36,972 nt of DNA from Planctomycetaceae bacterium (GTDB lineage Bacteria > Planctomycetota > Planctomycetia > Planctomycetales > Planctomycetaceae), in NCBI GenBank assembly GCA_021732845.1, contig JAKFUF010000110.1, forward strand, positions 1-36,972. Reading direction: 5' to 3'. The translations under genes were made by a program, and so were the position numbers. This document shows positions 7,602-36,972 of the stretch, in pieces (positions within the stretch are counted from its first letter, which is position 1; every line of letters starts with the position of its first letter). The notes beneath the pieces were generated by a model that ran no database searches, was not told the origin of the DNA, and was given only the letters and a program-made list of their open reading frames with translations.

Positions 7602-7676
7602 TCTCAAAACTCCGCCGGGGAAGGTCAGCGCGCTGAGCGGCATTTGCTTGAAGAGCAGGCCGAAGAATTGCTGAAT
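7602..7676 (+). pseudogene. Fragment paralogous to the O-antigen ligase/TPR gene
   Basis: Bases 7604-7672 match 17068-17136 inside the O-antigen ligase-like gene at 60 of 69 positions by hand alignment without gaps. The frame is kept: AGEGQRAERHLLEEQAEELL here and AGEGQRAERHLLAEQAEGFL there. No start and no further similarity could be followed on either side, so this looks like a remnant of a second copy of that gene, placed directly after the kinase. Confidence 0.7.
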
Positions 7677-7732
7677 TTGGGTTCATCCGGCAATTGCGCG
7701 CTTGGGGTGGAAAAGATGTGGACATGCGGTTT

Positions 7733-7762
7733 TGATCTGTGTGGATAGAAATTCACAGATCA
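7733..7762. repeat. Inverted repeat with 9-bp arms, 12-base loop
   Basis: TGATCTGTG at 7733-7741 is the exact reverse complement of CACAGATCA at 7754-7762. It lies 148 bases after the kinase stop codon and has no T-run, so it is not a standard intrinsic terminator. It could act as a processing or protein-binding hairpin. Confidence 0.4.
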
Positions 7763-7892
7763 GGGCGTCGCTGGTGACCGGCTCCGGGCACACCGCCAGC
7801 GGAGTATGTCCATTCGGGGGGTGGTTCGAAACGTCCATGTTAACCCCTGAGAGGTAGGGTTTCGCAGGCCGGCCCGCAATCCATCGCGGTGC

Positions 7893-8985: not shown

Positions 8986-9019
8986 CCCGGCTCCTCCACG
9001 CCGGGCATTACAGGACGAG

Positions 9020-9344
9020 CTTGGCGGCAGGGTGACCGCCCCATTGACCGTCACCACCGTGCGTGGCTGCCGGCCGTGATTCTTTCCACGCTTACCGGTC
9101 TTGGGGTCCACTGGAGGGGGAAAAAGCGGCTTCCGCCGCATTGATCCTTCGCTGAAGTGCCGCCTGAAAGGCGGCCTCCGAAAACTAGTGCAGCGCGGTC
9201 CGCGTGATCTCCTCGCTGTCGGAAATCATCCGGCCAGGGGCCGCCTGGTTGACGCTCGCGGCGACCTGCGCGAGGCACTCATCCAGAGCCACGGCCAAGT
9301 CCTGCTTCAACATCTCCCCCTTCATCACCGGCTGAACGTCCATG
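9020..9344 (-). pseudogene. Transposase N-terminal remnant (ISKra4-like)
   Basis: From an ATG at 9344 the minus strand reads MDVQPVMKGEMLKQDLAV, then DECLAQVAASVNQAAPGRM, an in-frame TAG at 9185-9187, then FSEAAFQAALQRRINAAEA. After a frameshift it continues GKNHGRQPRTVVTVNGAVTL and then loses similarity. The pattern (charged N-terminus, VNQA-PGR, the INAAEAAF segment, GRQPRTV-TVNG) resembles N-termini of planctomycete transposases that I associate with ISKra4-type elements. Only the first ~100 residues survive, with a stop and a frameshift. It is separate from the more complete element at 12541-14031. Confidence 0.55.
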
Positions 9345-9431
9345 CGATTCGCTCCCATTCAAAGGCTTGAAACACCCCAAACAGCAGACTGCCCATCTCC
9401 CCCAAAATGCGCCAATCAAAATAGGCACACC

Positions 9432-10095
9432 CCCAAGATTCCAGACGCTCACACGGGTGAATGGGGAAAGAACGAAGCCTGGATCATTTTGGAGGCCCCT
9501 CCTGACTGCAGGGTGTTTGCTGGTTTTAAATCGGGAGTTGATGAGAGTGGCCTGCGAACAGCCCTGGCCGAAGGTCGGGTGGCCGAGTTGCTGCACGCGG
9601 AGCCAGTGGTTCGAGGGGATGTGCTGTACATTCCTGCCGGGACGGTGCATGCCCTGAGTCCCGGGTTACTGTTGGCGGAGGTCCAGCAGGCCAGTGTTCA
9701 GACCTACCGCTTGTACGACTGGGGTCGGTGCGGCACGGATGGCCGGTCACGAGAATTGCACATTGAGAAGGCCATGGCGTGCATTGACTTCAACCGGGGA
9801 CCCCATCAGGCGCGCGTCACCCCGCATCGTCGAAACGTGCTGCACCCGCGTTGAAAACCTTGTCGATTCGCCTTGGTTTGTCGTCCGCCGCCATTCGGGG
9901 ACGGGTCCACATTGCAGATGTTCCGTCGCATCGCCACTCCGCACGGTCCCCTGCCCCTGCAGCACCATCAAGACGCGAAAGCGGTCATCGTGTTCAAGAA
10001 CCACTGGTGAAACCTTGCTGGTGTGTGCCGAGAGCCCTCGGACGACGGTCATTCCCCAGAGCCAATTTGAGTGGCTGGAGATCTCTCTGCCATGA
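9432..10095 (+). pseudogene. manA: Mannose-6-phosphate isomerase (type I, cupin) pseudogene
   Basis: The remnant encodes roughly the last two thirds of a type I phosphomannose isomerase, the enzyme linking fructose-6-phosphate to the mannose-6-phosphate used for GDP-mannose and thus surface polysaccharide. Signature parts: GEWGKNEAWIILEAPPDC, VLYIPAGTVHALSPGLLL with the zinc-ligand histidine, and QTYRLYDWGR. A frameshift near 9805 moves to the frame reading PRIVETCCTRVENLVDSPWF and VVRRHSGTGP. The next 95 bases (9910-10004) are inverted. After them the same frame resumes with GETLLVCAESPRTT and ends FEWLEISLP at 10095. The N-terminal third with the first metal ligands is absent. It is certainly non-functional: truncated, frameshifted and internally inverted. 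Confidence 0.85.
9910..10004. other. 95-bp micro-inversion inside the manA pseudogene
   Basis: On the minus strand this segment encodes VVLEHDDRFRVLMVLQGQ then GTVRSGDATEHLQC, the conserved cupin part missing from the plus strand. Flipping bases 9910-10004 gives an uninterrupted frame from GTGP through this segment to CGETLLV. The breakpoints are flanked by CCA at 9907-9909 and TGG at 10005-10007, a 3-bp inverted match. Confidence 0.85.
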
Positions 10096-10589
10096 TATTG
10101 TGCCGGTTCGCAAATTGGGGCATCCTCAGGCATCCTCTCGCGCTGACGTGGTCGACCTTCTGGGAACGGAGCGGCTGAAGCCGAATCGGGATCGTGAGCT
10201 GGCTTCAATGAATGGTGATGGAGGCGGTTCTGACCGCTATCTCCACACCATGTATTATGTCATGGTTATGTCGGTTCTTTAGCGTTCTCTGTTCGTCCAA
10301 TGAGGGTTGCCTCAAAGACACGGACATTCACAGCAACTTTGCGATTGCCCCTTGCTGAGTCGGGGTGAGTCGGCGGGCAGGCCTTGCGGATTTCCGATGA
10401 GCGGAGCCACTGCTGGCAGGTCACGAGTCGGAGGACTTGGTCATCATGATTATCATTGACCAGCGGCCGCCCTCTCGTGACAAATCCTTGGATCCTCAAG
10501 ACTCTTGACGGCCGAGCGGTCGCGGCCAGTCCACTTCAGGGTCCACCGCCCGGCGCAGAACAACGCAGTCGTCGCAACGGTTATCGTTT
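10096..10589. other. Intergenic stretch, nothing recognised
   Basis: No convincing gene, RNA or repeat was seen. A minus-strand open frame at 10266-10499 has plausible composition (VLRLVTCQQWLRSSEIRKA) but no recognisable family, no supporting start site and no neighbouring fragments, so it is not called. Confidence 0.5.
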
Positions 10590-11912
10590 CTAGCGGGCCT
10601 GCTTGCGTGTGCTAGCACTTTTGCGGGAGGGGGAACTTGATGAACGATCGATTTGAACCTTTTGGATCGTCGATGTGAGCGTCAGCAACTGGCGCAGGTC
10701 CGCGTGAAACGACGGATCGCTGGAACCACCGCGATGGCGATCTTTCTCAAAGCGGATCATGATCTGCAAGAACTTTTCCTGGTGGATGCGGTGGAGGCTG
10801 CTGAGAACCGAGAGGCGGGTGCGCTCCAGTGGGTCCGAAGTCGACTCCATGAGTTGCGTCAGCGGCGCGAAGACCCGATCTTCACGCGCCTCCAGCAGGT
10901 CATCGAGGAGTTGCGCTTGATCTTCGGAAAATGGGTTTGCATCACCGCTTCGTTGTGTCTTCAGGTATCGCCTGAACGCCGTCCCATACGAGACAGGAGG
11001 CCGCATTTCATTTTGAGCAGCGTGGCGTGGCCTGAAACTCTCCGCGTCCAGCATTTCCTTGACACAGGCGCTGATCACCATTGGAGCAGAAAATCTGAGT
11101 TGGAACCTCAGTTTGTCCAACGTGGCAGCCGTCGGCTGGGAAACCCGCACAGTGAAGTCGATGAGATCAAGGCGGTGCTCCAGTTCGACAAACTGTTCCA
11201 ACAACTGCCGCGCCTCCGGGATTTCCTCAGCTTGAAATGCGCTGGGCGACCAGAGAGGAATGCCAAGCGTGAGCGGGAAATCCGATTTCTTGGCGGCATG
11301 GATGTCGTCAGCATCGACTTCACTGACTACCACGGCGGCTCGCCCACAGGTGGCGGTGCTTTTGAGGGGGATGGCGGTGACGAACTCGTCGGTTGTGTTG
11401 ACGGCACCGGCGTCCAAGGCGGTGGCGTCGGTGACGCCGCCACAAACAACGCTGACAGTGTCGACTTCGGTCGCGTAGAAGGCGCCGGCCTCGAAGGTCG
11501 TGGCCTCGGTAACGCTTCCACAGCATATGCTGGCTGTGAGGTCGATGTCGGTGGCGTCGCAGGCGCTGGCCTCGGTGATGCTGCCACAACATACGCTGGC
11601 TGTGCAGTCGATGTCGGTCGCGTAGACGGCGCTGGCGTCGGTGACGCTGCCACCGATGACGCTGGCAGCGGTGTCAACGCTGCCAGGTTGAAAGGAACCA
11701 GCGTAAAAGTCGCTTTTAGCGGCCGTGGAACCGCTACGGTTGAAGCTAGACCAGCAGTCATGCTTCTCGTTGCACTCGCTATACGGACTGAATCCAAATG
11801 CCCGCCGCATGGAACCGTATTGCTGCGGTGTGAGGCTGGCGAAATCCGAGGCCGGAAGGGCGCAGATCCCCAAGCTCCAAAAGATTGCCAGATCCGCCAT
11901 GCTGAACACCAT
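10590..11912 (-). CDS. Unknown protein with cysteine-containing tandem repeats
   Basis: This protein of about 440 residues is of no family I recognise. It starts with a hydrophobic, Trp-containing segment (MVFSMADLAIFWSLGICAL), followed by SLTPQQYGSMRRAFGFSP. Residues ~70-175 are threonine/alanine-rich tandem repeats of the type ASVCCGSITEASACDATDID. The C-terminal half is helical and charged (ARQLLEQFVELEHRLDL, DQAQLLDDLLEAREDRVFA) and ends in a basic Ser/Arg/Lys tail. The opposite strand is also open, because the repeat units are multiples of three without stops, but it has poor amino acid patterns. I chose ATG 11912, just after the stop of the upstream gene (11935). The same frame is open to an ATG at 11990, which would overlap that gene by 56 bp. 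The two genes probably form an operon. Confidence 0.55.
   Translation of the reverse strand: MVFSMADLAIFWSLGICALPASDFASLTPQQYGSMRRAFGFSPYSECNEKHDCWSSFNRSGSTAAKSDFYAGSFQPGSVDTAASVIGGSVTDASAVYATDIDCTASVCCGSITEASACDATDIDLTASICCGSVTEATTFEAGAFYATEVDTVSVVCGGVTDATALDAGAVNTTDEFVTAIPLKSTATCGRAAVVVSEVDADDIHAAKKSDFPLTLGIPLWSPSAFQAEEIPEARQLLEQFVELEHRLDLIDFTVRVSQPTAATLDKLRFQLRFSAPMVISACVKEMLDAESFRPRHAAQNEMRPPVSYGTAFRRYLKTQRSGDANPFSEDQAQLLDDLLEAREDRVFAPLTQLMESTSDPLERTRLSVLSSLHRIHQEKFLQIMIRFEKDRHRGGSSDPSFHADLRQLLTLTSTIQKVQIDRSSSSPSRKSASTRKQAR
11430..11675. repeat. Tandem repeats of 78, 66 and 66 bp in the unknown gene
   Basis: Copies start at 11430, 11508, 11574 and 11640 (the last partial). Each begins GGT(G/A)A(C/T)GC on the plus strand and includes a conserved segment around CTGGCTGTG. 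Unit lengths are multiples of three, so both strands stay open. On the coding minus strand each unit encodes about 22-26 residues with a Cys or Cys-Cys pair followed by GS(V/I)T(D/E)A. Confidence 0.8.
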
Positions 11913-11934
11913 CACCGGGATTTCATCGCGTTGC

Positions 11935-12360
11935 TCATCGAATCCTTCCTGGAAGATGGCGTCCCACCGATGATGACGCATCGGCGCCACTAGCTAGCGC
12001 CCAGCCCCGCGGATGAACGCTCTCCAGCCCGGCGATCAAGTTAAAAGGGTGTGCAACCGGGCTCAGCCGCAGCGCCCACGCCAGTCCCAGAGGATCGCGC
12101 AGGGCAGCACGCAGCACCGGTTGCCCCCCCGCCCCAGAGGCCTCAAGCTGAAACACGCCCGCAGCCAGCAAGTCTGCGGGAGAAAACAAGCGAGGCAGCT
12201 CATCGCACAGCCGTTCAGGGTCTGGCAACCGGAAGAACGACGGGCAGCAAGGTATCGAGTGCCAGGGGTCTGGCAAGCAGGCGGGAGTCCCCCATTCGAC
12301 GATCGTTTGATAGATTGTGGAGGCGGGGGTGCGGGGAGATGGTTTTGCCGGTGGGTCCAT
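11935..12360 (-). CDS. Unknown protein, 141 residues
   Basis: From ATG 12360 the minus strand gives a 141-residue soluble protein. It is proline-rich at the start, has a helical centre (DPERLCDELPRLFSPADLLA) and continues RAALRDPLGLAWALRLSP and AHPFNLIAGLESVHPRGWA. I recognise no domain. Its stop lies 23 bases before the preferred start of the next gene, so the two are probably co-transcribed. An intrinsic-terminator-like hairpin lies just upstream of its start. A gene in a third-party genome with the same partner would be the best clue to function. Confidence 0.45.
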   Translation of the reverse strand: MDPPAKPSPRTPASTIYQTIVEWGTPACLPDPWHSIPCCPSFFRLPDPERLCDELPRLFSPADLLAAGVFQLEASGAGGQPVLRAALRDPLGLAWALRLSPVAHPFNLIAGLESVHPRGWALASGADASSSVGRHLPGRIR

Positions 12361-14782: not shown

Positions 14783-17461
14783 ATGCCTGCTTCTGCGATT
14801 GGACCATTCATGCGCCTTGCACCAAGCCGAAACATGGCCGTCTCAGTCTTCGGTGACGCGTCATGGGATCTCTTGCTGGCCCGCCTCCTCCTGTTGGGAA
14901 CACTCTGCGTAGCACCGTGGCTGTTTGGCGGGGTCGAGCCACACACCCAGGTGCTGCTGTTTGCAGGAGTCTGTGGTTCTCTGGCACTTTGGACGGTTTC
15001 CATCCTGCCCCAGATCCGGCGGCGAGGTTCGCTCCGCCTTCCAACCGTGTTGGTTCCCGTGGCGTCCGCGCTGCTGCTTGGGTCCATCCAGCTCATGCCG
15101 CTGTTTGCGCAGCAACCCGGCTCTCCCGCAAACAGCACCGTCGAAGGTCTCGTGCGCGAATCCACGCCCACAGCCAGCATCTATCCCGCTTCCACCCGCT
15201 ATGAGTTGGCTCGCGTGTCCGTTGCCTTCGTCGCGCTGCTGATGGGGGCCGTCCTCTTTCAAACGCGTCAGAGCCAGGTGTGGCTGTGGGGAATCCTGGC
15301 TCTCAATGGTGCTGCATTGGCGTTCTTTGGAATCGTGCAACAACTCAGCTGGAATGGGAAACTCTACTGGATCCATCCGCTTCTCAAAGGGGGGCAACCG
15401 TTTGCGTCGTACGTCAACCGCAATAATGCGGCGGGCTATTTGAATTTGTGCGTCGCCGCTGCCGTCGGGCTCTGCGTCTGGTCGTGTTTTGACGAGCTGA
15501 GTCATCGCGAAGGGAGCGGCGGCAATTTTCCGTCACGGAATCCGCGCGATCGGCTGATGCGATTCCTGGGGAAGGTCTCACGGCTCAACGCTCTCAACCT
15601 GGCTGCCTTCAGCATCCTGGCGTTCATGGCCGCCGGGATTGTCTGTTCCCTGTCGCGTGGCGGCATGCTGGCGCTGGCGGTGACCACGCTGGTGGCGACA
15701 GGTTTGCTGGTTCGCTCAGGCCGATGGGTCGGGATTCTCGGCTGCGTTGTCGCGATCGCCCTGGCCAGCTTCTGGTTGATTTCCTGGCTGGAATTGACGG
15801 ATGGAATCGGCAAGCGGTGGGGAGGCGGTTTGACGGATTTCGCTCACGACTCGCGGTTGGCCAACTGGCCGGACGCCATGCGGGTGATTCCCGATTTTCC
15901 GCTGCTTGGAACCGGATTTGGAACGTACCGCTATGCCTATCAGCCGTACGAATCGCGATACACCGCAGTCTGGTTTTACAACGCGGACAATCAATTCCTC
16001 GAGGGATGGGTTGAAGGAGGGATCGTTGGTCTGGGGTTGATGCTGGCGGCGATCGCGCTCACCATCATCGCCGCAACGGCATACGCCCGGGGTCATCGCA
16101 TGCTTTCACAGGATCCCGTGGCACTTGTGGGATTGTGGGCGATCCTCAGCCAGTGCGTCAGCGCCTTCTTTGACTTTGGACCGGCACTCGTTGCCAATAT
16201 GCTGACATTGGCCGTCCTGGTGGGGGCAGTGACCGGTCGTGTCGCGCGGCATGCCGGTTCCACGGGAATTCCCAAGTGGCTGGCATTGCCTCACATGTCC
16301 ACGGGTTGGACCGCCGCAGTCGGGGCGATTCTGCTGGGACATTCGGCGATGGCGCTGCGGGAAGTGCATGCACTCGCGACCCTGCGCGACACGGATGACA
16401 GGGTGCCAGAGCTCCGCTCCGCGGATTCGTTGCCGGGTGCCCAGTTGACGGAGCTCATCGACCGCCGTTCCGGACTCCTCAAGACCCGGCCGGATGACGC
16501 CGAGACCCATCAGGAACTGGCCGACCTGCTGATTTACCGCTATCGGCAGCAGGCGTTCGTGGTGCTGTCACAACAGACGGACGGCAACCGATTCGCCTGG
16601 AATTTGACAGATCCGGCGGTCTTGTACGCCAAGGTGCAAACCCTCGTCCGTTCCGGCCAGGGAGCCCGGATCAATGAACTGCAGAAGGATCCGCTGATCC
16701 GTGACAATCTAGTCGCGGCCCGGCTCCATCTTGTGGCCGCACAGAGGGCCTGCCCTCTGATGCCCAAAATTGACCTCCAACTGGCAATGCTCGACTTCCT
16801 TGCCAACAGCACTGACCCCACAGGAGAGGCCCATCTGCGGCGCGCCGTCGCGGTCACTCCGACGCGGCCGGATGTGCTTTTTTTGGCGGGGTTCTTGGCA
16901 CACGTGGCTGGGCTTGATGACCTTTCAAATGAATCCTGGCGCAGCTGCCTGCGCTTTGACCCGCAAAAATTTCCGCAGATCGAGAAACTCTTGGGCAAAC
17001 TGCCGTTGCAGGAGCAGATTCGAAGGATTCTGCCGGAATCCCCGGAATTTTTGTTGGCGCTGGCCAATCAAAAATACGCCGGTGAAGGTCAGCGCGCTGA
17101 GCGACACTTGCTTGCTGAGCAGGCCGAAGGATTTCTCCATGCACAGCAAGCGCGCCTGCCCGCAGCTGAGTACCTCCGTCTCCTGGCGCAGGTCCGGTCG
17201 TTGCAGGACCGGAATGCGACGGCTGAAGAACTCTTTCGCCAGGCCCTGCAATTGGCTCCGCTGAATGTGGAGTGGCGGTTCCAGTTCGCCCAGCAACTCC
17301 GCCAGCGCGGAAGGCTTAAGGCCGCGTGCGCACAGGCGGAGGCCTGTGTGTCGCTGTCGCCCGAGCGGCCAGAGTTCCGCAAACTGCTGGCGGAACTTCG
17401 GCTGCAGGTTCTCCGGCGGCCGAGTGACGCATCTGATCCCGAAGACTCAGATGTGCAGTGA
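14783..17461 (+). CDS. O-antigen ligase/polymerase-like membrane protein with TPR tail
   Basis: This 892-residue protein has an N-terminal half with about ten to twelve hydrophobic segments (for example LLLARLLLLGTLCVAPWLFG and LALNGAALAFFGIVQQL). It carries the WaaL/Wzy-type signature around residue 379: LLGTGFGTYRYAYQPYES then YNADNQFLEGWVEGGIVGLG. After about residue 540 the protein is soluble and helical with TPR-like pairs (HQELADLLIYRYRQQ, LAPLNVEWRFQFAQQLRQRG). Such proteins join or transfer undecaprenyl-linked glycan chains at the outer face of the inner membrane. It opens the plus-strand EPS block. ATG 14810 or 14834 is equally possible as the start, and the latter (MAVSVFGDASWDLLLAR) looks most natural. 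Polymerase versus ligase cannot be told from sequence alone. Confidence 0.88.
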   Translation: MPASAIGPFMRLAPSRNMAVSVFGDASWDLLLARLLLLGTLCVAPWLFGGVEPHTQVLLFAGVCGSLALWTVSILPQIRRRGSLRLPTVLVPVASALLLGSIQLMPLFAQQPGSPANSTVEGLVRESTPTASIYPASTRYELARVSVAFVALLMGAVLFQTRQSQVWLWGILALNGAALAFFGIVQQLSWNGKLYWIHPLLKGGQPFASYVNRNNAAGYLNLCVAAAVGLCVWSCFDELSHREGSGGNFPSRNPRDRLMRFLGKVSRLNALNLAAFSILAFMAAGIVCSLSRGGMLALAVTTLVATGLLVRSGRWVGILGCVVAIALASFWLISWLELTDGIGKRWGGGLTDFAHDSRLANWPDAMRVIPDFPLLGTGFGTYRYAYQPYESRYTAVWFYNADNQFLEGWVEGGIVGLGLMLAAIALTIIAATAYARGHRMLSQDPVALVGLWAILSQCVSAFFDFGPALVANMLTLAVLVGAVTGRVARHAGSTGIPKWLALPHMSTGWTAAVGAILLGHSAMALREVHALATLRDTDDRVPELRSADSLPGAQLTELIDRRSGLLKTRPDDAETHQELADLLIYRYRQQAFVVLSQQTDGNRFAWNLTDPAVLYAKVQTLVRSGQGARINELQKDPLIRDNLVAARLHLVAAQRACPLMPKIDLQLAMLDFLANSTDPTGEAHLRRAVAVTPTRPDVLFLAGFLAHVAGLDDLSNESWRSCLRFDPQKFPQIEKLLGKLPLQEQIRRILPESPEFLLALANQKYAGEGQRAERHLLAEQAEGFLHAQQARLPAAEYLRLLAQVRSLQDRNATAEELFRQALQLAPLNVEWRFQFAQQLRQRGRLKAACAQAEACVSLSPERPEFRKLLAELRLQVLRRPSDASDPEDSDVQ

Positions 17462-17468
17462 CTGGAAT

Positions 17469-17498
17469 GGCCAGCCCCAGAATCGGGGTCTCCTGGCC
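17469..17498. terminator. Hairpin just after the ligase-like gene
   Basis: GGCCAG pairs with CTGGCC, and inside it CCCC pairs with GGGG, only 7 bases after the stop codon. There is no T-run, so it may be a weak or factor-dependent terminator or a transcript-stabilising structure. Confidence 0.4.
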
Positions 17499-18104
17499 GG
17501 TCAACTGCATGACGTCACGATTCAACGGCAAAGTTGCAGGTGGCACGCACATCGATGGCTTTGCGCGAGCGCGTCCTGAAGAGATGTCGACTTGAGCCAT
17601 TTTGGATCGACCGGCGAAATCGATCAGGATTTGACCAGGTTTGAAGGGCAATGCAGCACAATCGCGCATTTCGTTGAATTCGCTAGATTCAACCGTCCGA
17701 TGACAGTGATGCGATGCACTGCGGTGGGAATGCCTTCGCTTCAACCGCAGCTCCATGAGAGCTGTGTGACGCAATTCCCAATTCAATGTGTCAAACAGGC
17801 CATTTCTGCGCGCCGATCCCATTCAAACACCGAATCGAACGATTGCTTTCAGACAACGCACGATCTAACCGCTGGAAGTTGAGGCTCGTCAAATCGACCC
17901 GTTGCTGCCCCCCTCCGGCTGACTGCGTGCAAAGGCTTCAACTCAGAATTGCATAGGCAAATCAGCAATTGAGGACGTTTTCAAAACTGCAAGCATGAAG
18001 TGCCCCCGAAGTGCAAATGTTGCGTGGAGCAGTCGGCAAAGCGAGCGAACCAATCCTTGGACAGATCCCGATACACCCGCGTCACCCCTGCAGAAGACTT
18101 TGTC
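17499..18104. other. Intergenic region, no gene recognised
   Basis: About 600 bases lie between the ligase-like gene and the lipoprotein gene without a recognisable coding frame or RNA. The open frame that enters the lipoprotein gene begins at 18000, but codons before the ATG at 18105 lack a signal sequence and are probably untranslated. A promoter for the lipoprotein/export genes is expected here but was not identified. Confidence 0.45.
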
Positions 18105-19184
18105 ATGAACGTTAAGCTTGCATGTCTGGGCCTTGCATTCATGATGTGCCTTTCCGGTTGTTTGTATGAGATTCGCGATGACATCGATGAATTCGCAATT
18201 ACGACCCAGAATCGCATTCTGGCCAGTCGGGCGTGGCGGAGAAACTGTGAAGTTCACTCGGAATGTGCGTACCGGCACGATCTGAAGGCCGGATTCCTGG
18301 CCGGATATGCCGCGATCATCAATGGCTCCCGTGGTTGTCCGCCAACCATTCCCCCCCGCAAATACTGGGACGCCGTTGCCGATCCATTGGTGATGCAAGC
18401 CCGGACGGAGTGCTGGTTCCAGGGCTGGTCCTATGGGACCATCGCCGCGGAATCTGACGGAGTGGCCGGGCTGCACCGGATCGTCACCCGGGGCGGTGGG
18501 CAGCAACTGGAGTTATTGCCGGTTGCCGCCATGCCGGAGGAGGCATTTGAATCCCCTGCGGGCGACGGTGACGACCCTGAAGTTCCAAGTGCGCCCCCTG
18601 AGGTTTCCGAACCGCCTCAGCCTGCCGATGTCACCGGCAAGTCGAATGTCACGACCGAACGGGGATTGTCCGAATTCAACAGCCCGAATGCGGTCCGAGG
18701 TGACGCCGATGCCCCGCCGCTCACCATCGAAAAGTGCGCGCATGAGAGCCACACAGGGCGCGAAACCAGCGAGATTCACTTGGATCACAAGCACCGCCAG
18801 TCCTTGAAGGCGGGAGTTGCCTCCACCCACACTGCGGTCAACAACGGGTCCGATTGCCGCCGGCCGACGCCCCTCCAGCGCAGGCTTCGGGATGCCAGAT
18901 CTGGTTCAACGCTGGTGAAGGCCAAGCCGGCGTGCCAGTACCAGGACCTGTCAAGCGAAGCCATCCCGGCGGAGTCTGCCGCCCTGGACGGGCTGCTCCC
19001 ACCTGCAACACCTGGCTGTCGTCCGCAATTGGAGTCGCTGCTGGTGGATGACGAATCGACATGGACATCAGAATCGCCCATGAGGGCGGTAGATGAACAG
19101 GAGATTCCCTCCACACCCCTTGAGGATGCCGGACACTCACGGCTTGCCGATGAGCCAGGTAGGGCGAAAGTCACAAACGAGTGA
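18105..19184 (+). CDS. Planctomycete-type lipoprotein with internal duplication
   Basis: This 359-residue predicted lipoprotein has residues 1-19 as a signal peptide with lipobox LSGC (acylated Cys19). The first repeat, about residues 57-182, contains DLKAGFLAGYAAIINGSRG, CPPTIPPRKYWD and CWFQGWSYGTIAAESDGV. I know this combination (short DF-x-GF-x-GY motif, CPP-x-PP-RYW, W-x-G) from planctomycete lipoproteins near polysaccharide genes; their function is unknown to me. A diverged second copy follows at about 229-358. The start was chosen for the signal peptide; the open frame runs 35 codons further upstream. It lies 70 bases before the Wza-like gene, so an accessory role in export at the outer membrane is an inference from position. 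Confidence 0.78.
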   Translation: MNVKLACLGLAFMMCLSGCLYEIRDDIDEFAITTQNRILASRAWRRNCEVHSECAYRHDLKAGFLAGYAAIINGSRGCPPTIPPRKYWDAVADPLVMQARTECWFQGWSYGTIAAESDGVAGLHRIVTRGGGQQLELLPVAAMPEEAFESPAGDGDDPEVPSAPPEVSEPPQPADVTGKSNVTTERGLSEFNSPNAVRGDADAPPLTIEKCAHESHTGRETSEIHLDHKHRQSLKAGVASTHTAVNNGSDCRRPTPLQRRLRDARSGSTLVKAKPACQYQDLSSEAIPAESAALDGLLPPATPGCRPQLESLLVDDESTWTSESPMRAVDEQEIPSTPLEDAGHSRLADEPGRAKVTNE

Positions 19185-19254
19185 TGCTGACACTGAAAAA
19201 ATGCCCCGACCTTTCGGTATCGGCTCACCACACTTCTCTTGAGTACAAGCCATC

Positions 19255-20652
19255 ATGCTGCCTGTTGCCACAGCTTCAACACGAAGGTGGATTCAGAATG
19301 GTTGTCGGCGAACGGCTGGCGTCGTCCTTCGCCTCATTGTCGCGCTTGCTGTGGGAGCCACGGCTGGCTGCAGCAGTTTGAACATTCTGACAGGCGTTCC
19401 TGCGGTTCCCGCGCACCGGGTGCCGCCAGAATTTATGGCGCGGCCGCGCGCCGACATGCAGGAAATCACCCTGGCCCGGCTCCGGCAAAACCCGCCAAAG
19501 GTCTATCAACTTGCGCCCAACGATGTACTTGGCGTCTACATCGAAAATGTCCTGGGACAACCGGATGTTCCCCCGCCCGTGAATTTCCCGCTCGACAGCA
19601 GCAAGCCTCCATCCCTCGGCTTTCCAATTCCAATCCGGGAGGACGGAACCGTTGCCCTGCCGCTCGTCGAGCCGATTCAGCTGACAGGGCTCACTCTGAC
19701 GCAGGCGACCGACGAGATCCGCAAGGCATACACCGTCAAGCAGAAGATCCTTCCCGAAGGCAAGGACCGGATCATTGTCACGCTGCAGCGACCCAGGGAA
19801 TACCGCGTGCTGGTGGTGCGGGAGGAGTCGGGCGGTTCCCAGTCATCGGGAGGGCAGGGTCGGCAGGGAGGCGGCGGCCAGCAGGTTTCATCCAAACGCG
19901 GCGCGGGCTATGCCGTCAACCTGCCGGCCTATGAAAATGACCTGCTGCACGCGTTGACTGAGACCGGGGGCCTGCCCGGGACGGACGCCGAGAACGACAT
20001 CTTGATTTTTCGAGGCGGATTCACCGACGCCGTCGAACGAGACCAGTTGATCGCCCGGATCAAGAGCGGCAAAGACCCTTGCCTGTGCGAGCCTCCGCTG
20101 CCGGATGAAAAGAACGTGGTGCGGATTCCACTGCGTTTCTTTTCCGATCAAGTCCCCAAATTCAAGCAGGACGACATCATCCTCAACAACGGCGACATCG
20201 TCATGATTTCGTCGCGTGATCGGGAAAAGTACTACACCGGCGGGGCAATTACAGGGGGTGAGTTCCTGCTGCCACGAGACTATGACGTCAACATCCTGCA
20301 GGCGATTGCCATTGCCGGAGGGCGCATCGGTTCCGGTGGGACCGGGATTGGGCAGGCTGGCGGCAACAGCGGCGGCGGGGGCTTTGGTGGCGGGAGCGGA
20401 GGAGGAGGAGGCATCGCCCCATCACGAGCAATCATCCTGCGGAAAACCTGCAACGGCGGACAGATCCCTATCCGGGTTGATCTCCGCAAGGCCCTGTCCG
20501 ATCCCTCACAGCAGATTTTGATTCAGCCAGAAGACACGATTATTGTTCAATACACATTTGTTGAAGAGGCGTACAACGCCCTCCTTAGACTGGTGCAGTT
20601 CAACTTCCTCTTCAACGGCCTCTCGGGCAGCGGGAGCGGGAGTGGAAGGTAG
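19255..20652 (+). CDS. Polysaccharide export outer-membrane lipoprotein (Wza-like)
   Basis: This 465-residue export protein has a hydrophobic signal segment at about 23-38 ending in a TAGC lipobox-like site (Cys39), then a Poly_export domain (YQLAPNDVLGVYIENVLGQ) with DGTVALPLVEPIQLTGLTL. Downstream are SLBB-type segments (YENDLLHALTETGGLPG, PRDYDVNILQAIAIAGG, LIQPEDTIIVQY). By family knowledge it forms the outer-membrane channel through which capsule or EPS leaves the cell, in contact with the Wzc-type kinase. Two glycine-rich insertions are unusual: about residues 193-210 (GGSQSSGGQGRQGGGG) and 360-385. The protein ends in a Gly/Ser tail. The gene follows the lipoprotein and precedes the epimerase. 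Confidence 0.9.
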   Translation: MLPVATASTRRWIQNGCRRTAGVVLRLIVALAVGATAGCSSLNILTGVPAVPAHRVPPEFMARPRADMQEITLARLRQNPPKVYQLAPNDVLGVYIENVLGQPDVPPPVNFPLDSSKPPSLGFPIPIREDGTVALPLVEPIQLTGLTLTQATDEIRKAYTVKQKILPEGKDRIIVTLQRPREYRVLVVREESGGSQSSGGQGRQGGGGQQVSSKRGAGYAVNLPAYENDLLHALTETGGLPGTDAENDILIFRGGFTDAVERDQLIARIKSGKDPCLCEPPLPDEKNVVRIPLRFFSDQVPKFKQDDIILNNGDIVMISSRDREKYYTGGAITGGEFLLPRDYDVNILQAIAIAGGRIGSGGTGIGQAGGNSGGGGFGGGSGGGGGIAPSRAIILRKTCNGGQIPIRVDLRKALSDPSQQILIQPEDTIIVQYTFVEEAYNALLRLVQFNFLFNGLSGSGSGSGR

Positions 20653-20822
20653 CGGCGGTGGGTACTCCGAGTCCAGAGCCAACAGATGGCCCAACCGGAT
20701 TTCCGATGAACCGGCCAAAACAACGAAATCATTTCGCGATTTTCAGGAGACTGATGGCGAATTAACCGCCTCGGTCGTGGCCATCGAAAAAGAATTTCGA
20801 GCGAATCTCACTATCTAAATAT

Positions 20823-21884
20823 ATGCAGCGTTTGGTCATCACCGGCGGAGCCGGCTTTGTGGGCTCGAACCTGGCAGTCCACCTGCAGGAACTGGGGACC
20901 GGCCTGCAGATAACCTGCGCTGACAGCCTCAAGCGGCGCGGATCGGAACTGGCATTGCCGAGGCTCAGCCGGCACGGCATCGCCTTTTGCCATCTCGACG
21001 TGCGCTGCCCCGAAGATTTTGAACGCCTTCCCGCATTTGACCTGCTGATTGACTGCGCTGCCGAACCCTCGGTCCATGCAGGAATCGGTGAATCGCCGTT
21101 GCATGTCCTCAGTCCGAACCTGATCGGCACGATTCATTGTCTGGAAGCGGCGCGAAAGCAAAATGCTGCCTTTCTGTTTCTGAGTTCGAGCCGCGTCTAC
21201 CCGATCACCGCCGTCAATCAGCTGGATTTCATCGAAGCCGAGTCGCGTTTCTCGCTCACCGGCCAGCAGAAACTGTCTGGCAGCTCGGCGGCGGGGATCA
21301 ATGAAGACTTCCCGTTGACAGGTGCCCGCTCGCTGTATGGAGCGACCAAGCTGGCCGCGGAATTGTTGATTCAGGAATACGTCTACAGCCACGGAATGAG
21401 GGCGGTGATTAACCGGTGCGGAATCCTGACCGGCCCGTGGCAGATGGGCAAGGTCGACCAGGGTGTGGTGACCTACTGGATGTCGCGGCATCTCTTTCAG
21501 CGGGAACTGCTTTATCTGGGCTACGGAGGCACGGGCAAACAGGTCCGGGATCTGCTGCACGTCTCCGATCTTGCAGCTTTGATCGTCAAACAGATGCAAC
21601 ATGTGGCTGGCTGGGATGGTCAGATTTTCAACGTTGGCGGCGGTTTGTGCTGTTCACTGTCCCTGAAAGAGCTGACTGAACATTGCCAACGTCGCACCGG
21701 CCAGCAAGTCCCAATTTCGGCTGTACCGGAAACCGCCGCCACTGACATCCGCATTTACCTGAGCGATTGCTCGCGCGTGCAGACTGTCTACGACTGGCGG
21801 CCTGCCCACACCGTGGACACGATTCTGGACGATATTTACAGCTGGTTGGTGGAGCACCGCGCACTGCTGGAACCGATGCTGTAA
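20823..21884 (+). CDS. NAD-dependent nucleotide-sugar epimerase (SDR family)
   Basis: This 353-residue extended short-chain dehydrogenase starts with the NAD-binding glycine motif ITGGAGFVGSN at residues 6-16. Acidic residues at the end of beta-2 (CADSL) fit NAD use. The catalytic serine region is FLFLSSSRVYP and the Tyr-x3-Lys pair is SLYGATKLAAELL. The closing region YGGTGKQVRDLLHVSDL is typical of nucleotide-sugar epimerases and dehydratases. The whole most resembles CDP-paratose 2-epimerase-like enzymes, but substrate cannot be set from sequence. It would supply an activated sugar for the polysaccharide. It lies 170 bases after the export gene and converges on the wzc-like gene; no clear Shine-Dalgarno sequence is visible. 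Confidence 0.88.
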   Translation: MQRLVITGGAGFVGSNLAVHLQELGTGLQITCADSLKRRGSELALPRLSRHGIAFCHLDVRCPEDFERLPAFDLLIDCAAEPSVHAGIGESPLHVLSPNLIGTIHCLEAARKQNAAFLFLSSSRVYPITAVNQLDFIEAESRFSLTGQQKLSGSSAAGINEDFPLTGARSLYGATKLAAELLIQEYVYSHGMRAVINRCGILTGPWQMGKVDQGVVTYWMSRHLFQRELLYLGYGGTGKQVRDLLHVSDLAALIVKQMQHVAGWDGQIFNVGGGLCCSLSLKELTEHCQRRTGQQVPISAVPETAATDIRIYLSDCSRVQTVYDWRPAHTVDTILDDIYSWLVEHRALLEPML

Positions 21885-21981
21885 GTGCCGAGGATGGCGA
21901 CTTCACGTTCTGGTTTGGTTGAGCGTCGGACGCACTTCGACGGCTCATTCGGCTAGGAGGGTTGTGAAGTACGCCGTGGCG

Positions 21982-22315
21982 ATGAAGACTCCCTTCGCGC
22001 CTATGGGCAGGCGTTGATTGCCGCCGTGGCTCAGACTCTGTCCCTGGTCGATGCGCAGATCCAGGCGGTCATTGAGGCTGGAAATCAGCACGTCCAATAT
22101 GTGCAGGCGGTCGACGCCACCGGGGAAGGCTCTGCAATCGCTCTACGCTTCCGACCCTCTGGTGCTCGCGGAGATCCGCGAAGGTGACCGCAGCCATGAC
22201 ACACGCGTTCATCGGGCAGCTGGGCGCGGAACTCACGCTTGGTGAGGCGTCGCTCTATCTGCTTGAAATGCCCCCGATTTCACTTGGCATATTTGCCGTT
22301 TCGTCATCCTCATAA
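21982..22315 (+). pseudogene. Remnants of two small unknown genes
   Basis: From ATG 21982 (MKTPFAPMG), after a one-base shift, the plus strand reads ALIAAVAQTLSLVDAQIQ then AVIEAGNQHVQYVQAVDATG. After a second shift it reads KALQSLYASDPLVLAEIRE. A second short frame starts at ATG 22196, MTHAFIGQLGAELTLGEASL, and runs into the 3' end of the opposing kinase gene, stopping at 22315. Both look like genuine protein sequence from a compact two-gene set, but I do not recognise the family. They may derive from a mobile or phage-like element. The second frame overlaps the wzc-like gene by 61 bp. Confidence 0.45.
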
Positions 22316-24504
22316 TATCCGCCATAGCCGTTGCGTCCATAGGCGTACTTGTAGCCATCAACACTGTAGGCCCCGTAGTTGTAACTGCCCCCCGCCTTGG
22401 CGCTGATGCCGTTCACCACGATTCCGATCACCGGAGCCCCGATGGCCTTTAGCATGTCGGTTGCTTCTATCGAGTTCTGGCGTCCGTTCTTCCGGATGCG
22501 CATCGCGATGATTACGCCGTCAACTCGAGCCGCCACGGCAGCGGGGTCCGAGACCGCCAACAGGGGGGGGGTGTCGACGATGACGTAGTCAAACTTGGCC
22601 TTCAGGGCCTCGAGCAGCTCCGCGAAGCGGGGCTGCGAAAGCAGTTCCGATGGGTTAACGGGTCGCGGGCCGCTAGTGAGCAATGACAGGTTGTTCAAAC
22701 CGCATTCCTGGGTCACGTCTACCAAATCAATGTCGCTGGTCATCAGTGATGACAACCCATGGTCATTGTCGACCCCAAACAGCTTATGCACACGCGGCCG
22801 ACGGAGGTCCGCGTCGAGGAGCAGGACTCGCTTTCCAGATTGGGCAATCACGACCGCCAGGTTCGCGGCAAGCGTCGATTTGCCATCAGAAGGGTCTGCG
22901 CTTGTGATTTGAATCACTTTGTGCCGTTCACCGTTTGTGCAGAAAAACAGGGCATTGCGAACTCCACGAAATGCCTCGGCGGTCACTGACCGCGGACGCA
23001 GATGGGTGCACAGCGACCCGTCGATCGTTTGGTTTTCGGACGTCTCGATCCGAATCGGTGGGACGTGTCCTATCACTCGTAGACCGAGCGACTTGCTGAT
23101 ATCCAACGAGTTTCGGAAGCTTTTGTCCGCAACTTCCAACAGATAGGAAAGCGCCAGCCCGGAAAAAATGCCGCAAAACGCGCCCAGTATGATCGTTTTC
23201 AAAAAATCCGGCCCGGTTCGCCACCCAAAGGGGGCTGGTGAAATGATCTGAATTCGATACCCACCACCATCTTGGATTAGCGACACTTCCTGAAGCCGCT
23301 TCACAACTACATCGAACAGGCTCTGGGTGCGCTGAATGTCGTTGCGAAACCTTTCATCGTCCGATTCATCGACCGAAAGTTTCCGCGCCTCAGTTTCTTC
23401 CTTCGCGAACAACTTATTGAGTTCAGATTCCTTTTCAGTGTTGGTTTGTAGTTCCTGTCGAAGCGACTCCAGATACACTGAAACGAAGTCCTTTGAGGCA
23501 CCTGCGGTCACTGGATTATTATCACCTGTCGGTCCAGCGGTGTTCGTCAAAAACGCCCGGGTGATGGCGATTCGCTTCTGAATGCCACGGACTTTGGGAT
23601 GGTCAGATCCGAGATTCTCAAGCAGCAGTTGCTCTTCCAGCAGCATCGGAAACAGTTCGCTGGCGACGGATTTGGTCTGCGTGCCCGTGCCGGCTTGGAC
23701 CTTGTCAAGCATCAATGACAAGGCTTCACGACTTCCCCCCTGCTTCATCGCCATCTCGATGGCGCGCAATTGTGCGCTCGTCTGGGTCCGCTCAATCAAC
23801 AATTGCGAGCGCGCACTCTCAATTTGCGTGAGGCGGTCGGCATGCACATTAATCGATGAGTCCTTGCCCTTTCGAACTAGCCGAGATGTATGCTGCCACT
23901 CGGAGAACGCGGACTCCTTTTGTGCAAGTTGTTCCAGCAGTGCGTCCTTCGCTTGACCGATGAGTTCGACGGTTTCCTTTCCCAAGCTTTGACGTGTGTC
24001 ACCAAGGAACTTCTCGTAGCTCTGGGCGACGGCATTAGCGACGAGTTGACAGTCGTGGGGATCCCCTCCAGTATAGGTGATGTCCAGCATCATCGCCCCC
24101 TCCTCAACCACCCGAATCGACAGCCCCCGGATGATTTGTTCCTCGCAGGCTGTCTCATCCTTCGACAGAGACGAGAGATCCGACAGGTTGTGGAACTTGA
24201 CGGCGGAACCCACGATGAGCGGACTGCGAACCAGCAATGCTTGATTTGCAATCCCATCCACCAGACTACTCGCCCCAACTCCGGTGATTGGCAGACTTTT
24301 GGGAACATCCCGAATCACCATCACTCGGGCCGTTGACGAATAGGTTGGCAGAACCCTGCTGAAATGCAGGTAACCGAGCCCAACTCCAATCAACGCGATC
24401 ACCGCCACTAACCACTTGCGGCGCCACAGCACCCGGCCAATGGAGGCACCTTCCGGGGTGTCTGTGTCCTGCGAGCCAAATTCAGCCCCCTCCACATGCG
24501 CCAT
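22255..24504 (-). CDS. Wzc-type polysaccharide copolymerase with BY-kinase domain
   Basis: This 749-residue inner-membrane protein controls chain length and export of EPS. TM1 is at about residues 29-47 (KWLVAVIALIGVGLGYLHF), followed by a long coiled-coil-rich periplasmic part. TM2 is near residue 435 (IILGAFCGIFSGLALSYL). A cytoplasmic tyrosine kinase follows: Walker A SADPSDGKSTLAANLA near 535, Walker A' VLLLDADLRRPR and Walker B YVIVDTPP. The tail holds a cluster of about ten tyrosines (SYNYGAYSVDGYKYAYG and following), the expected autophosphorylation sites. ATG 24504 has a GGAG 11 bases upstream and a natural N-terminus; the frame also has a TTG at 24531. It is the last gene of the minus-strand block, separated from the glycosyltransferases by transposase debris, and may therefore have its own promoter. 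Confidence 0.93.
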   Translation of the reverse strand: MAHVEGAEFGSQDTDTPEGASIGRVLWRRKWLVAVIALIGVGLGYLHFSRVLPTYSSTARVMVIRDVPKSLPITGVGASSLVDGIANQALLVRSPLIVGSAVKFHNLSDLSSLSKDETACEEQIIRGLSIRVVEEGAMMLDITYTGGDPHDCQLVANAVAQSYEKFLGDTRQSLGKETVELIGQAKDALLEQLAQKESAFSEWQHTSRLVRKGKDSSINVHADRLTQIESARSQLLIERTQTSAQLRAIEMAMKQGGSREALSLMLDKVQAGTGTQTKSVASELFPMLLEEQLLLENLGSDHPKVRGIQKRIAITRAFLTNTAGPTGDNNPVTAGASKDFVSVYLESLRQELQTNTEKESELNKLFAKEETEARKLSVDESDDERFRNDIQRTQSLFDVVVKRLQEVSLIQDGGGYRIQIISPAPFGWRTGPDFLKTIILGAFCGIFSGLALSYLLEVADKSFRNSLDISKSLGLRVIGHVPPIRIETSENQTIDGSLCTHLRPRSVTAEAFRGVRNALFFCTNGERHKVIQITSADPSDGKSTLAANLAVVIAQSGKRVLLLDADLRRPRVHKLFGVDNDHGLSSLMTSDIDLVDVTQECGLNNLSLLTSGPRPVNPSELLSQPRFAELLEALKAKFDYVIVDTPPLLAVSDPAAVAARVDGVIIAMRIRKNGRQNSIEATDMLKAIGAPVIGIVVNGISAKAGGSYNYGAYSVDGYKYAYGRNGYGGYYEDDETANMPSEIGGISSR

Positions 24505-24584
24505 TGCCACATCTGCTCCAGATAAAATCAATAATGTAATAGCTGGTTAAAATCAGACCATTTTTTGGCGGTATGGCACTTTGG

Positions 24585-24603
24585 TCGACCGGTGCCCGGT
24601 CGA
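24585..24603. repeat. Perfect 8-bp inverted repeat upstream of the wzc-like gene
   Basis: TCGACCGG-TGC-CCGGTCGA lies about 80 bases before the start codon of the wzc-like gene. It has no T-run and is a candidate operator or 5' leader hairpin. An AT-rich stretch between it and the gene (24521-24570) is the most promoter-like sequence here. Confidence 0.4.
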
Positions 24604-25057
24604 GTTGCCCTTTTCGCCCTCGTTCTGATCCAAATTGAGAATGAAGTTGATCTTGCCACCCGACGGTCGATTCTACAGTTGTCAGCAATGCTTGTAAAAG
24701 AGAATCACGGGACAGTTCGGGGAGAATGACAAATTAGCATCACCAGCCAGTTTTCTCTTAACATCCTTGAAGATTGACAGTTACATGCGTAAAAGCCGCT
24801 CGCATGACTGCCCCAATCTTGGTGCGTGCGCCGGCAGGGAAATTCCAAGTTTCGATCTCGAGGCGGTCGATTTTCGAGCGATTGCATACCCTATATTTCT
24901 GTCGAGTGTGCTACCCGTGTGGACTGCTACACCCGTAAACTGCTCGTAGCAAGTCATTTATGGCCGACTTTGCGCAACCATTCCCCGAACTCGCAGCGTT
25001 TACGTCAGATGGAGGACGATGGCCGAGCCTGACGGATGGCCAAGGTGGTTGCAACAC
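24604..25057. other. Intergenic region between the wzc-like gene and ISL3 debris
   Basis: This moderately AT-rich stretch contains no recognised coding sequence. The open frame entering the ISL3 remnant begins at 24960, but its first ~33 codons show no transposase similarity, so the element is truncated on this side. It probably contains the promoter for the wzc-like gene on the minus strand. Confidence 0.45.
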
Positions 25058-25735
25058 CACGCGGCAGGTGGACGTGGGCTTTGCCGACCCGCACAAGCGG
25101 CACACCCGGCAGTTTGCCCGGTACGCCCTGGAACTCACAAACTCGATGACGATTCAGGACGTGGCGCGGCACCTGCAGGTCGGCTGGGATCTGATCAAGG
25201 ATCTCAAGAAGGAAGACCTGGAGCGGCGGTACGCCAGGCCCGCGCTGCGGGATCTGAAGCACATTGCGATTGATGAGATCTGCATAGGCGGCGGGCACCG
25301 GTACCTGACGGTGGTCCTGGACCTGAAGACCGGGGCCATCGTGTTCGTGGGCGAGGGCAAGGGGGCCTCCGCACTGTGGCGGTCGACATGTCCCCGGCCT
25401 TCACCAAGGCGGTCCGCGAGAACCTGCCGGACGCAACGCTGGTCTACGACCACTTTCACATCATCAAGCTCTTCAACGAGAAGCTGACCCAGCTCCGCCG
25501 CGACCTGCACCGGAGCATCACCGATGTCATGCAGAAGAAGGCCCTCAAGGGGGTCCGCTGGCTGCTGCTGAAGAACCCCGAGAACCTAGATGACACGAAG
25601 GGGGAAAGCCGGCGGCTGCGGGAGGCCCTGGACCTGAACGCCCCGCTGGCCACCGCCTACTACCTCAAGGAAGACCTGCGGCTGCTGTGGTCCCAGCCGG
25701 GCAAGCGCGCGGCTGGGAAATTCCTGCCCCACTCG
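25058..25735 (+). pseudogene. ISL3-family transposase remnant, truncated at both ends
   Basis: The plus strand reads FADPHKRHTRQFARYALEL, an HTH part (NSMTIQDVARHLQVGWDLI) and the first catalytic block HIAIDEICIGGGHRYLTVV then LDLKTGAIVFVGEGKGASAL. A gap of roughly 15 residues plus a frame change follows at 25375. It then reads VAVDMSPAFTKAVRENLP, LVYDHFHIIKLFNEKLTQL, KGVRWLLLKNPENLDD and NAPLATAYYLKEDLRLLW, after which similarity stops at about 25735. The N-terminal zinc finger and the last ~100 residues with the final catalytic glutamate are missing, so it is inactive. No terminal repeats are visible. It sits between the wzc-like gene and the glycosyltransferase genes, in opposite orientation to them. 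Confidence 0.85.
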
Positions 25736-25862
25736 TCGGATAGAACTATCCAGAGACTATCAAACTACGCGCGCAATTGCCGGATGAACCCGAATTGATG
25801 ACTCCGCAAATCGCGAACAATGCAGATTTCGCGCGAAGAAGAGCTACTCGGAGGGTGGCCTG

Positions 25863-27240
25863 TCACTTACCTGCATTCCCCACCTGTGCGAGTGGCTCGA
25901 ATAAGCGCAGCAACTTAGCTTGGCTTTCGTTGACGAGCCTCTGGTTCACTGGCAATCCATTGTGAAAGGCATGGCGATAGGTCATTTTAACGGTGCCATC
26001 ACCGTAAGCTTCGCTGAACAACTTGCCTGACATCGAGATTCGACTGCTGTAGCCCAAAGCAAGAATCCCAAGAGTGAAGTACCACAGGAGATAGAGTCGT
26101 GCCATGACCCTATACACCTGGCCAAAACCTGAAAATTCGTGAATGGCTTCAAAGAGCATCACCGCCAGTATGGGAAGAAGTGGGATCCAGAACCTCCCGT
26201 CAATGTGCGGCCAACAAAAAATCATTGCAGCGTACCAAAGCAAGTTTACCACAAGAGGAACAAGGTGTGGCGTTCTCAATGACAGATAGGCATCACGCAA
26301 TACTGCAATCCAACCGCAAAAGCCAGCGACATACACAAGCGGTAGAACCCTGGCTGCCTTCGAGTCTGGCACATTGACAAATGTTTGCCCAAACTCATTC
26401 AGGCGGAACTGAGAATTCTGCATAATGACCTCCACGGGGCCTCGTGTTGCATATCGATTCATGAACGACTGGAAATAGCTTTGAGGAAGCACGAATTGTG
26501 CCTTGTACCATTCACTGGTTTTCAAAAATAAAAAGCCCAACGCCACCCCCCCCCCCCACCAACATGAAAATCGTGAGTGCAACATAGCTCGAGTGTTTCC
26601 TAAGCAAAAGTTCTAATGTGGGTGTCACGATGTGTCAGCGCCACGGTCACTAATGCCGGGAACAGCGCGATTCCGACGGTTTGAACTTGCAGAGCCAAGC
26701 AGCTCATTGCAAATGCGGTTAGGAAGTGGAGCCACTTTTGTGCTCCGTTCCCGCAGTAGAATCGACACGCAAAATAGATTGCAGCCGACGAGAATGCGAA
26801 ATACAGCATGTCAGTGAGGGGCAGTGTTACGTGCTTTATCAGAATAAACGAGCAAAGGACGAACAAAATCTTTAAAAGATAGTCACTTGCACTACGGCGG
26901 AAGTCACTGAAGGGGATAATAAAGACTAGTCCGGTGGCAAGGCATCCGATATTAGCGCGACAAGTGAACTACTGTTTGCAATGCCGGCACGCAGCATCAC
27001 TCGCACCACCGCCGGGTATCCATTCGGGAACTGATCAATGTTGCCGTCTACCAAGTAGCCTTCCCCGGCGTGTGCAGACGCCGCCATGGACAGTAGTCGC
27101 GTAGAGTCGGTGTTGAGGCGCAAGGGTGATAACATTTGCAGGCAATAGCATGCTGCGATCAATGCTGTCAATGTGCCCAGTCGATAGTGAACAGGAATCG
27201 CAATTTGTGACAAGCGGTTTTCGGTCACGCATATCTCCAT
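25863..27240 (-). pseudogene. GT-C-like polytopic membrane protein, frameshifted
   Basis: Three minus-strand frames join into one protein of about 455 residues. From ATG 27240: MEICVTENRLSQIAIPVHYR, a first TM and LNTDSTRLLSMAASAHAGEG then FPNGYPAVVRVML. After a shift near 26945 comes NIGCLATGLVFIIPFSDFR with several TMs. After a shift near 26625 comes TPTLELLLRKHSSYVALTIF. The G12 tract at 26546-26557 leads into the last frame, VALGFLFLKTSEWYKAQ to WPHIDGRFWIPLLPILAVML, stopping at 25863. An early D-S motif, many TMs and a DGRFW-type motif resemble GT-C (GT39-like) lipid-linked-sugar transferases, but the assignment is tentative. As written the protein is not made whole. Confidence 0.7.
26546..26557. 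repeat. Homopolymer tract of 12 C (G on the coding strand)
   Basis: Inside the GT-C-like gene, 12 consecutive G on the coding strand fall exactly where the reading frame changes. With 11 or 14 G the two sides would be in one frame. This is either a decay or sequencing slip, or a phase-variable switch. Confidence 0.85.
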
Positions 27241-27511
27241 GATGGGGGATTTTCTCGTAGCGAGTTCGCGGTAAGATGAATTCCCCGGCTCTTCCACCAG
27301 GTGGCCGGCATCTGTGCCGGGCCGAGATAGATGATGCCGCGGGAAGTGATACTTGACAAGAATTCGGTCGAGGCAAGCGGTTCCCGCACAATCGCGGAAT
27401 TTACGAAGTGGCAGACCTCGGCAGAATGCACCAGCCTTTGCAGGCTGCCTATTTATGAGAGCTGGCCGTGTGGCTTCCAGTCAAGAGTGTCTCCACCGCG
27501 GATGGAAGCGC
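27241..27511. other. Intergenic gap between GT2 and the broken membrane gene
   Basis: No gene recognised. A small stem-loop, CAGCCT-TTGC-AGGCTG, lies at 27432-27447 without a T-run. A minus-strand frame here (27225-27431) has no family signature. Confidence 0.4.
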
Positions 27512-28995: not shown

Positions 28996-29037
28996 CAGAT
29001 ACCGGTGCGAGCAGCAGTCCGTGGCGTCCTGAAAGCC

Positions 29038-29067
29038 TTAGCCGGAAATATCAACGGAAGAATTCAT
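29038..29067 (-). other. Original methyltransferase start, followed by an in-frame stop
   Basis: ATG at 29067 overlaps the acetyltransferase stop as ATGA and reads MNSSVDISG, then TAA at 29038-29040, then GFQDATDCCSHRYLLPK in the same frame. The typical operon overlap and the family-like sequence after the stop indicate this was the true start. Confidence 0.65.
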
Positions 29068-30848: not shown

Positions 30849-30880
30849 GCGCGGATTGTCGCAGGAGTTGGTCAAGGAAA

Positions 30881-36735: not shown

Positions 36736-36972
36736 ATCGTGTTGACTGCTCGCTTGCTGCACTTGGTCGATGGAGTCTGGTCCCGAAACTCGAGTCTGCA
36801 GAAAACTCACGCGTTGACTTCCCCTGCGGTGACTCTCAGTAGTGGTATTACCTCGGCGCGGAACAACATCACACATCGCCCGCCGCGTATTGAGCGCACG
36901 GGTGCTGGAAATAGGACATGATGTGCCCGGGAAGCTGGGCAAGTTTCTGCATGAAACCGTTCAGGTTTGACT

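Follow-up and report, generated by a model that had tools for sequence, protein, structure and literature searches.

The window considered in this work is a stretch of 36,972 bases, contig C91 of the draft genome of a Planctomycetaceae bacterium (9.25 Mb in 262 contigs, 95.68% complete). Positions 9454-10095 of the window represent the 3' portion of a gene for a type I mannose-6-phosphate isomerase (phosphomannose isomerase), manA, and the features of this locus are collected in Table 1. Two intact type I phosphomannose isomerase genes are located on contigs C9 and C47 of the same genome. The C47 protein scores above the cut-off of the curated manA model TIGR00218 (131 vs 116.2 bits), the C9 protein falls under that cut-off (104.6 vs 116.2 bits), and both loci pass PF20511. 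Alignment with these paralogues supports a single balanced micro-inversion of 95-101 bases inside the manA pseudogene.

Table 1. Features of the manA pseudogene locus in the window
Feature	Position	Strand	Evidence or remark
ISKra4-like insertion sequence, remnant of its 5' end (transposase gene start; terminus at 9432 inferred)	9015..9432	-	92% over 418 bases to C158:18589-19005
Terminus (22 bases) of another ISKra4-like insertion sequence, directly adjoining the manA fragment	9433..9454	+	repeated copies in genome
manA (type I phosphomannose isomerase) fragment, 5' half missing, frame-shifting insertion	9454..9906	+	79.9% over 452 bases to intact C47 manA
8-base perfect inverted repeat, left arm (possible fold-back aid, weak)	9880..9887	+	19 bases outside left breakpoint
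Inverted manA segment	9907..10007 (max 101 bases; min 95 = 9910-10004)	-	blastn minus match; best in end-point scan
manA C-terminal end and stop codon	10008..10095	+	82.6% over 92 bases (10005-10096) to C47 manA
8-base perfect inverted repeat, right arm	10039..10046	-	31 bases outside right breakpoint; asymmetric with left arm

The orientation of the segment is evident from nucleotide comparison with the C47 gene. In blastn, the left flank (9454-9905) matches C47 manA on the plus strand at 79.9% over 452 bases and the right flank (10005-10096) on the same strand at 82.6% over 92 bases, while 9907-10004 is matched on the minus strand only (76.5% over 98 bases, E 4e-16). When 9910-10004 is flipped, the three pieces fuse into a single alignment of 643 bases at 79.3% identity (E 1e-161). 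The C9 gene behaves in the same way, giving a plus piece of 454 bases (69.6%) and a minus piece of 66 bases (80.3%) with the unflipped region, and a single 645-base alignment with the flipped one. In other words, the segment matches the reverse complement of its homologous segment and its flanks match directly, which is the pattern of a micro-inversion. An earlier sequence-only reading of this DNA had placed the manA parts on the plus strand around 9910-10004 and a conserved block on the minus strand, and this arrangement is the one recovered by the plus/minus/plus matches that merge on flipping.

The minus strand of 9910-10004 reads VVLEHDDRFRVLMVLQGQGTVRSGDATEHLQ, and the flipped segment continues its flanks as ...GTGP-VVLEHDDRF...EHLQC-GETLLV... 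in one frame. The continuous frame that the sequence-only reading had expected after flipping is thus found locally, at both junctions, but it is interrupted upstream by a one-base insertion near 9800. Compared with the C47 gene, 76 of the 101 bases of the slot agree in the flipped orientation and 20/101 in the unflipped one; dinucleotide-preserving shuffles (5000) reach a mean of 27.9 and a maximum of 45 agreeing bases. The length is unchanged across the segment, with 101 bases standing opposite 101 in the C47 gene. The breakpoints share three inverted bases, CCA/TGG, present at both junctions as had been proposed. In a 60 by 60 scan of end points, the pair 9910-10004 reached the best score, as the sequence-only reading had it, but tied with 9909-10005, 9908-10006 and 9907-10007. 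This is because the CCA/TGG match permits four placements, so that the segment measures 95, 97, 99 or 101 bases.

Protein comparison extends this result to other isomerases. Of 20 isomerases (the two from the same genome and 18 others), 19 give the flipped 87-residue tail a higher score than its unflipped version, as do 17 of the 18 from outside that pair. This comparison with phosphomannose isomerases was the check proposed with the original claim, and together with the alignments to both intact paralogues it bears out the micro-inversion in a manA pseudogene. The 31-residue block taken alone beats the best of 200 shuffles in 11/20 isomerases when flipped and in 0/20 when unflipped. Two points in this material speak against the inversion: the flipped block alone fails to beat shuffles in 9/20 isomerases, mostly distant relatives, and one of the 20 (L015) favours the unflipped tail (48 vs 43). 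The latter hardly tests the flip, since its match to the C47 protein stops at residue 328, just ahead of the block.

Apart from the C47 and C9 genes, the genome yielded no copy of the segment among the best 14 of 38 candidates, nor among all 28 of 28 in a second search. On these searches, the segment was not imported from a surviving copy elsewhere, and such an origin was rejected. Across 40 genomes, 9432-10095 is matched in 13, namely its own and 12 others at 67-74% identity, and the 39 other genomes examined contain no close copy. A single scan of genome contigs, which may leave out records of this or a very near genome, gave 11 related isomerase loci at 34-50% protein identity; the five best belong to records titled Planctomyces, Planctomycetales or Planctomycetaceae.

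The manA copy bears further damage. Its homology begins mid-gene, at 9454, and the 5' half is absent; a one-base insertion, placed at 9800 in the alignment, shifts the frame. The copy is therefore dead regardless of the inversion. The sequence-only reading was right in describing a dead manA copy but overlooked both the 5' truncation by insertion-sequence ends and the frameshift, and it let the manA region start at 9432, where bases 9433-9454 are the end of an insertion sequence. The stretch C158:18589-19005, which resembles the remnant upstream of this terminus, contains the start of a 499-aa open reading frame (ORF) that matches the model NF033572 transpos_ISKra4 with E 1.4e-39 and 136 bits (curated cut-off 205). 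The 22-base terminus itself has five exact genomic copies, its own included, and five more with 2-3 mismatches, whereas a reversed control pattern has 0. It closes a near-identical longer stretch at C177, C194 and C221 and a similar one at C1, and it is read as an insertion-sequence end because the sequence beyond it varies between copies. The ORF beside one exact copy (L034), which is perhaps partial, also matches NF033572 (E 7.5e-36, 124 bits, cut-off 205). Since both ORFs fall short of the curated cut-off (136 and 124 vs 205 bits), the elements are named ISKra4-like only. On this sequence evidence, the manA copy appears to have lost its 5' half at the remnant ends of two ISKra4-like insertion sequences.

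The timing of this decay can be approached by codon positions, with lineage changes assigned by using the C9 gene as the outgroup. The pseudogene lineage has 8 changes at first, 7 at second and 25 at third codon positions (chi-square vs equal shares, P 0.0005), a distribution much like that on the C47 lineage (16, 7 and 32). This third-position bias suggests that the copy was a working gene for most of its history, and the codon-position counts indicate that its decay is probably recent. Within the flipped segment, differences from the C47 gene, arising on either lineage, fall preferentially at third positions of the flipped frame (15/33 vs 10/68, P 0.0013). The inversion is thus probably late as well; changes on the pseudogene lineage inside the segment (2, 0 and 3) are too few for dating alone.

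A larger duplication of the manA region was also considered and rejected, as the wider C47:40000-48000 shares with the window just manA and three short stretches within the window's kinase gene. At 14783-31001 of the window, several genes resemble those of exopolysaccharide synthesis or export (O-antigen ligase-like, polysaccharide export protein, tyrosine autokinase, glycosyltransferase). The manA copy could once have served this exopolysaccharide-like gene setting.

The explanation considered the most probable, though with clear reservations, is that of a damaged manA copy in which the balanced inversion arose by paired replication template switching. A diverged second manA copy would have lost its 5' half at insertion-sequence ends, acquired a frameshift and undergone one balanced inversion near its 3' end, with no order implied. 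For the inversion, DNA polymerase would switch strand at CCA, copy about 100 bases of the opposite strand after landing at the distal TGG, and switch back at the matching triplet, by which the length would be kept. By this inferred route, one event accounts for both junctions and for the constant length.

Several observations weigh against template switching. Of the 95-base placements along the window, 5.6% have an inverted match of at least 3 bases, so the CCA/TGG microhomology is weak evidence. An inverted repeat of at least 8 bases surrounds 94 of 4000 random placements (2.35%), which makes such a repeat rarer than chance, but the one found here is off-centre, 19 vs 31 bases from the breakpoints; it is given little weight because it lies off the breakpoints and was picked from 34 inverted pairs. 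The strand 9866-10060 folds no better than its shuffles (z -0.67, with 51/200 at least as good), and strand structure as a driver of the inversion was rejected on that ground. Moreover, the authors of PMC8755829 doubt template switching at repeats of 3-4 bases and prefer microhomology-mediated break-induced replication, and the human-chimpanzee micro-inversions they describe are shorter (17-33 bases) than the manA segment.

Among the other routes, end joining, in which two breaks about 100 bases apart would be followed by rejoining of the fragment in reverse, is an unlikely source of the inversion but the best placed of the rivals. The balanced outcome agrees with it, and the junctions share just 3 bases, as end joining would leave. 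However, two nearby breaks without loss of bases are improbable, as argued in PMC8755829 for breaks about 20 bases apart. A Ku gene was not detected in this 95.68% complete genome by a search that was positive in 1 of 14 control genomes, that of Bacillus subtilis; the Ku-dependent form is made less likely by this, and a Ku-independent form is unaffected. The sequence-only reading had preferred error-prone template switching or end joining to a site-specific invertase. Its view of the invertase stands in the lack of a long inverted repeat, and its end-joining option is narrowed by the Ku result.

Microhomology-mediated break-induced replication, which ranks just behind end joining as another unlikely route, would start from a break inside the segment, after which short inverted matches pair and the segment is recopied. 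It was proposed in PMC8755829 for micro-inversions with very short or imperfect flanking inverted repeats; the proposal was, however, made for primates. Its product is identical to that of template switching, and the sequence cannot separate the two mechanisms.

An assembly or amplification artefact is improbable. Multiple displacement amplification can generate inverted chimeras, the draft consists of 262 contigs, and the segment is known from the assembled sequence only. On the other hand, contig ends overlap by 127 bases (C177 and C194 by exactly 127; the window end and C82 by 127 at 100%; the C158 end, C195 and C74 by 127 at 100%), suggestive of an assembly graph built at k=127, although contigs from smaller k can be carried over. 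A word of 127 bases can span the segment and both junctions, with 7 placements leaving at least 10 flanking bases per side, and such words argue against a mis-join, short of proof. Balanced inversions at 3-base matches are not known as a usual assembler error.

A reversible intragenic inverton, acting as a phase switch, is very improbable: the frame is open through the segment in either orientation, as a switch might have it, but the breakpoint inverted repeat has 3 bases vs 10-40 in invertons (PMC11892184), and in a gene already truncated and frameshifted a flip would not restore function. A site-specific invertase was likewise rejected, the inverted repeat at the breakpoints being just 3 bases long and the nearest perfect repeat 8 bases long and 19/31 bases away. 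No recombinase match appeared in the 10 window ORFs of one profile comparison or the 4 ORFs of another, with no search aimed at recombinases made.

The whole window of 36,972 bases was compared with the same genome in four pieces, with the best 40 of 95, 189, 91 and 60 candidates scored, and no other nested plus/minus/plus pattern was found among these matches. Nor was the pattern seen in the 8 matches listed for the C158 insertion sequence (best 40 of 80). This is a small survey of the window and not a rate. Other repeats and genes were noted along the way. An 86-87-base repeat at 7679-7765, perhaps a small mobile or intergenic repeat, has 97% identical copies on C247, C81 and C4, and a 69-base direct repeat is present at 7604-7672 and 17068-17136 (87% identical). 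Two long ORFs (446 and 466 aa) overlap on opposite strands at 10590-11993, neither with a Pfam match at E 0.001. A sugar-nucleotide epimerase/dehydratase-like gene at 20823-21859 has a close relative at C33:1513-2549 (80% over 1037 bases). The last 127 bases of the window (36846-36972) equal the first 127 of C82, seven further contigs carry similar stretches of 125-130 bases (76-78%), and this is a repeat at which the assembly breaks.

The locus offers a clear case of a bacterial gene in which about 100 bases underwent a balanced inversion, with its ends known within 3 bases and the orientation of the segment proven by two intact paralogues in the same genome. Gene callers would log such a manA remnant as an ordinary damaged gene, and plus/minus/plus matches between a dead gene and a living paralogue represent a way to find such events. 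It is doubtful that template switching, through balanced inversions of about 100 bases, forms a regular, overlooked route of gene decay in insertion-sequence-bearing planctomycete-like genomes; if true, this could be read from any dead copy whose genome also contains an intact paralogue. As one well-resolved event, the inversion is of modest general interest.

Intragenic DNA inversions of bacteria, called invertons, were reportedly described by Chanin et al. 2024. They resemble the manA event in being inverted segments within a gene, and differ in their reversibility and in the length of their flanking inverted repeats, 10-40 bases (PMC11892184) vs 3 bases here. Short inversions are also known from eukaryotes, and PMC2483231 mentions mammalian micro-inversion markers. 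According to PMC8755829, all 59 definite human-chimpanzee micro-inversions have inverted repeats at their breakpoints; they are mostly exact copies, and 11% have only 3 bases per flank. As in manA, a short segment is replaced by its reverse complement; inverted matches flank both, those of manA being 3 bases that 5.6% of placements also show. The manA case is bacterial and deduced from paralogues about 20% diverged. Short-range template switches of great apes, as reported in PMC7954356, likewise copy a reverse-complement piece by local strand switching. Their fragments have a median of 12 bases and a maximum of 128, and only 5.5% of the events keep the length, whereas the manA event is long and balanced. 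In yeast coding genes, template switching inverts the spacer between inverted repeats and changes up to five neighbouring residues (PMC8604942); the spacer inversion within genes is alike, while the manA case covers about 31 codons in a dead gene.

A close parallel is the 24-base intragenic micro-inversion in an evolved E. coli KLY clone, which at first resembled a run of substitutions (PMC4272514). Both are short inversions in a bacterial gene that disrupt the protein, fixed rather than switching in the KLY clone and probably so here, but the KLY inversion has 24 bases and the manA one 95-101, with a 3-base match and known from assembly alone. The remark of the sequence-only reading that such events are rarely recognised is fair, with this E. 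coli case as a precedent. Among the matches listed in a search of open-access titles and abstract openings, no report of a bacterial pseudogene with a micro-inversion of about 100 bases was found, which is no claim of absence. Overall, fixed micro-inversions inside bacterial genes are already known, and the manA event is a clean example of this kind, distinguished by its length and its tiny breakpoint match from those of E. coli and primates.
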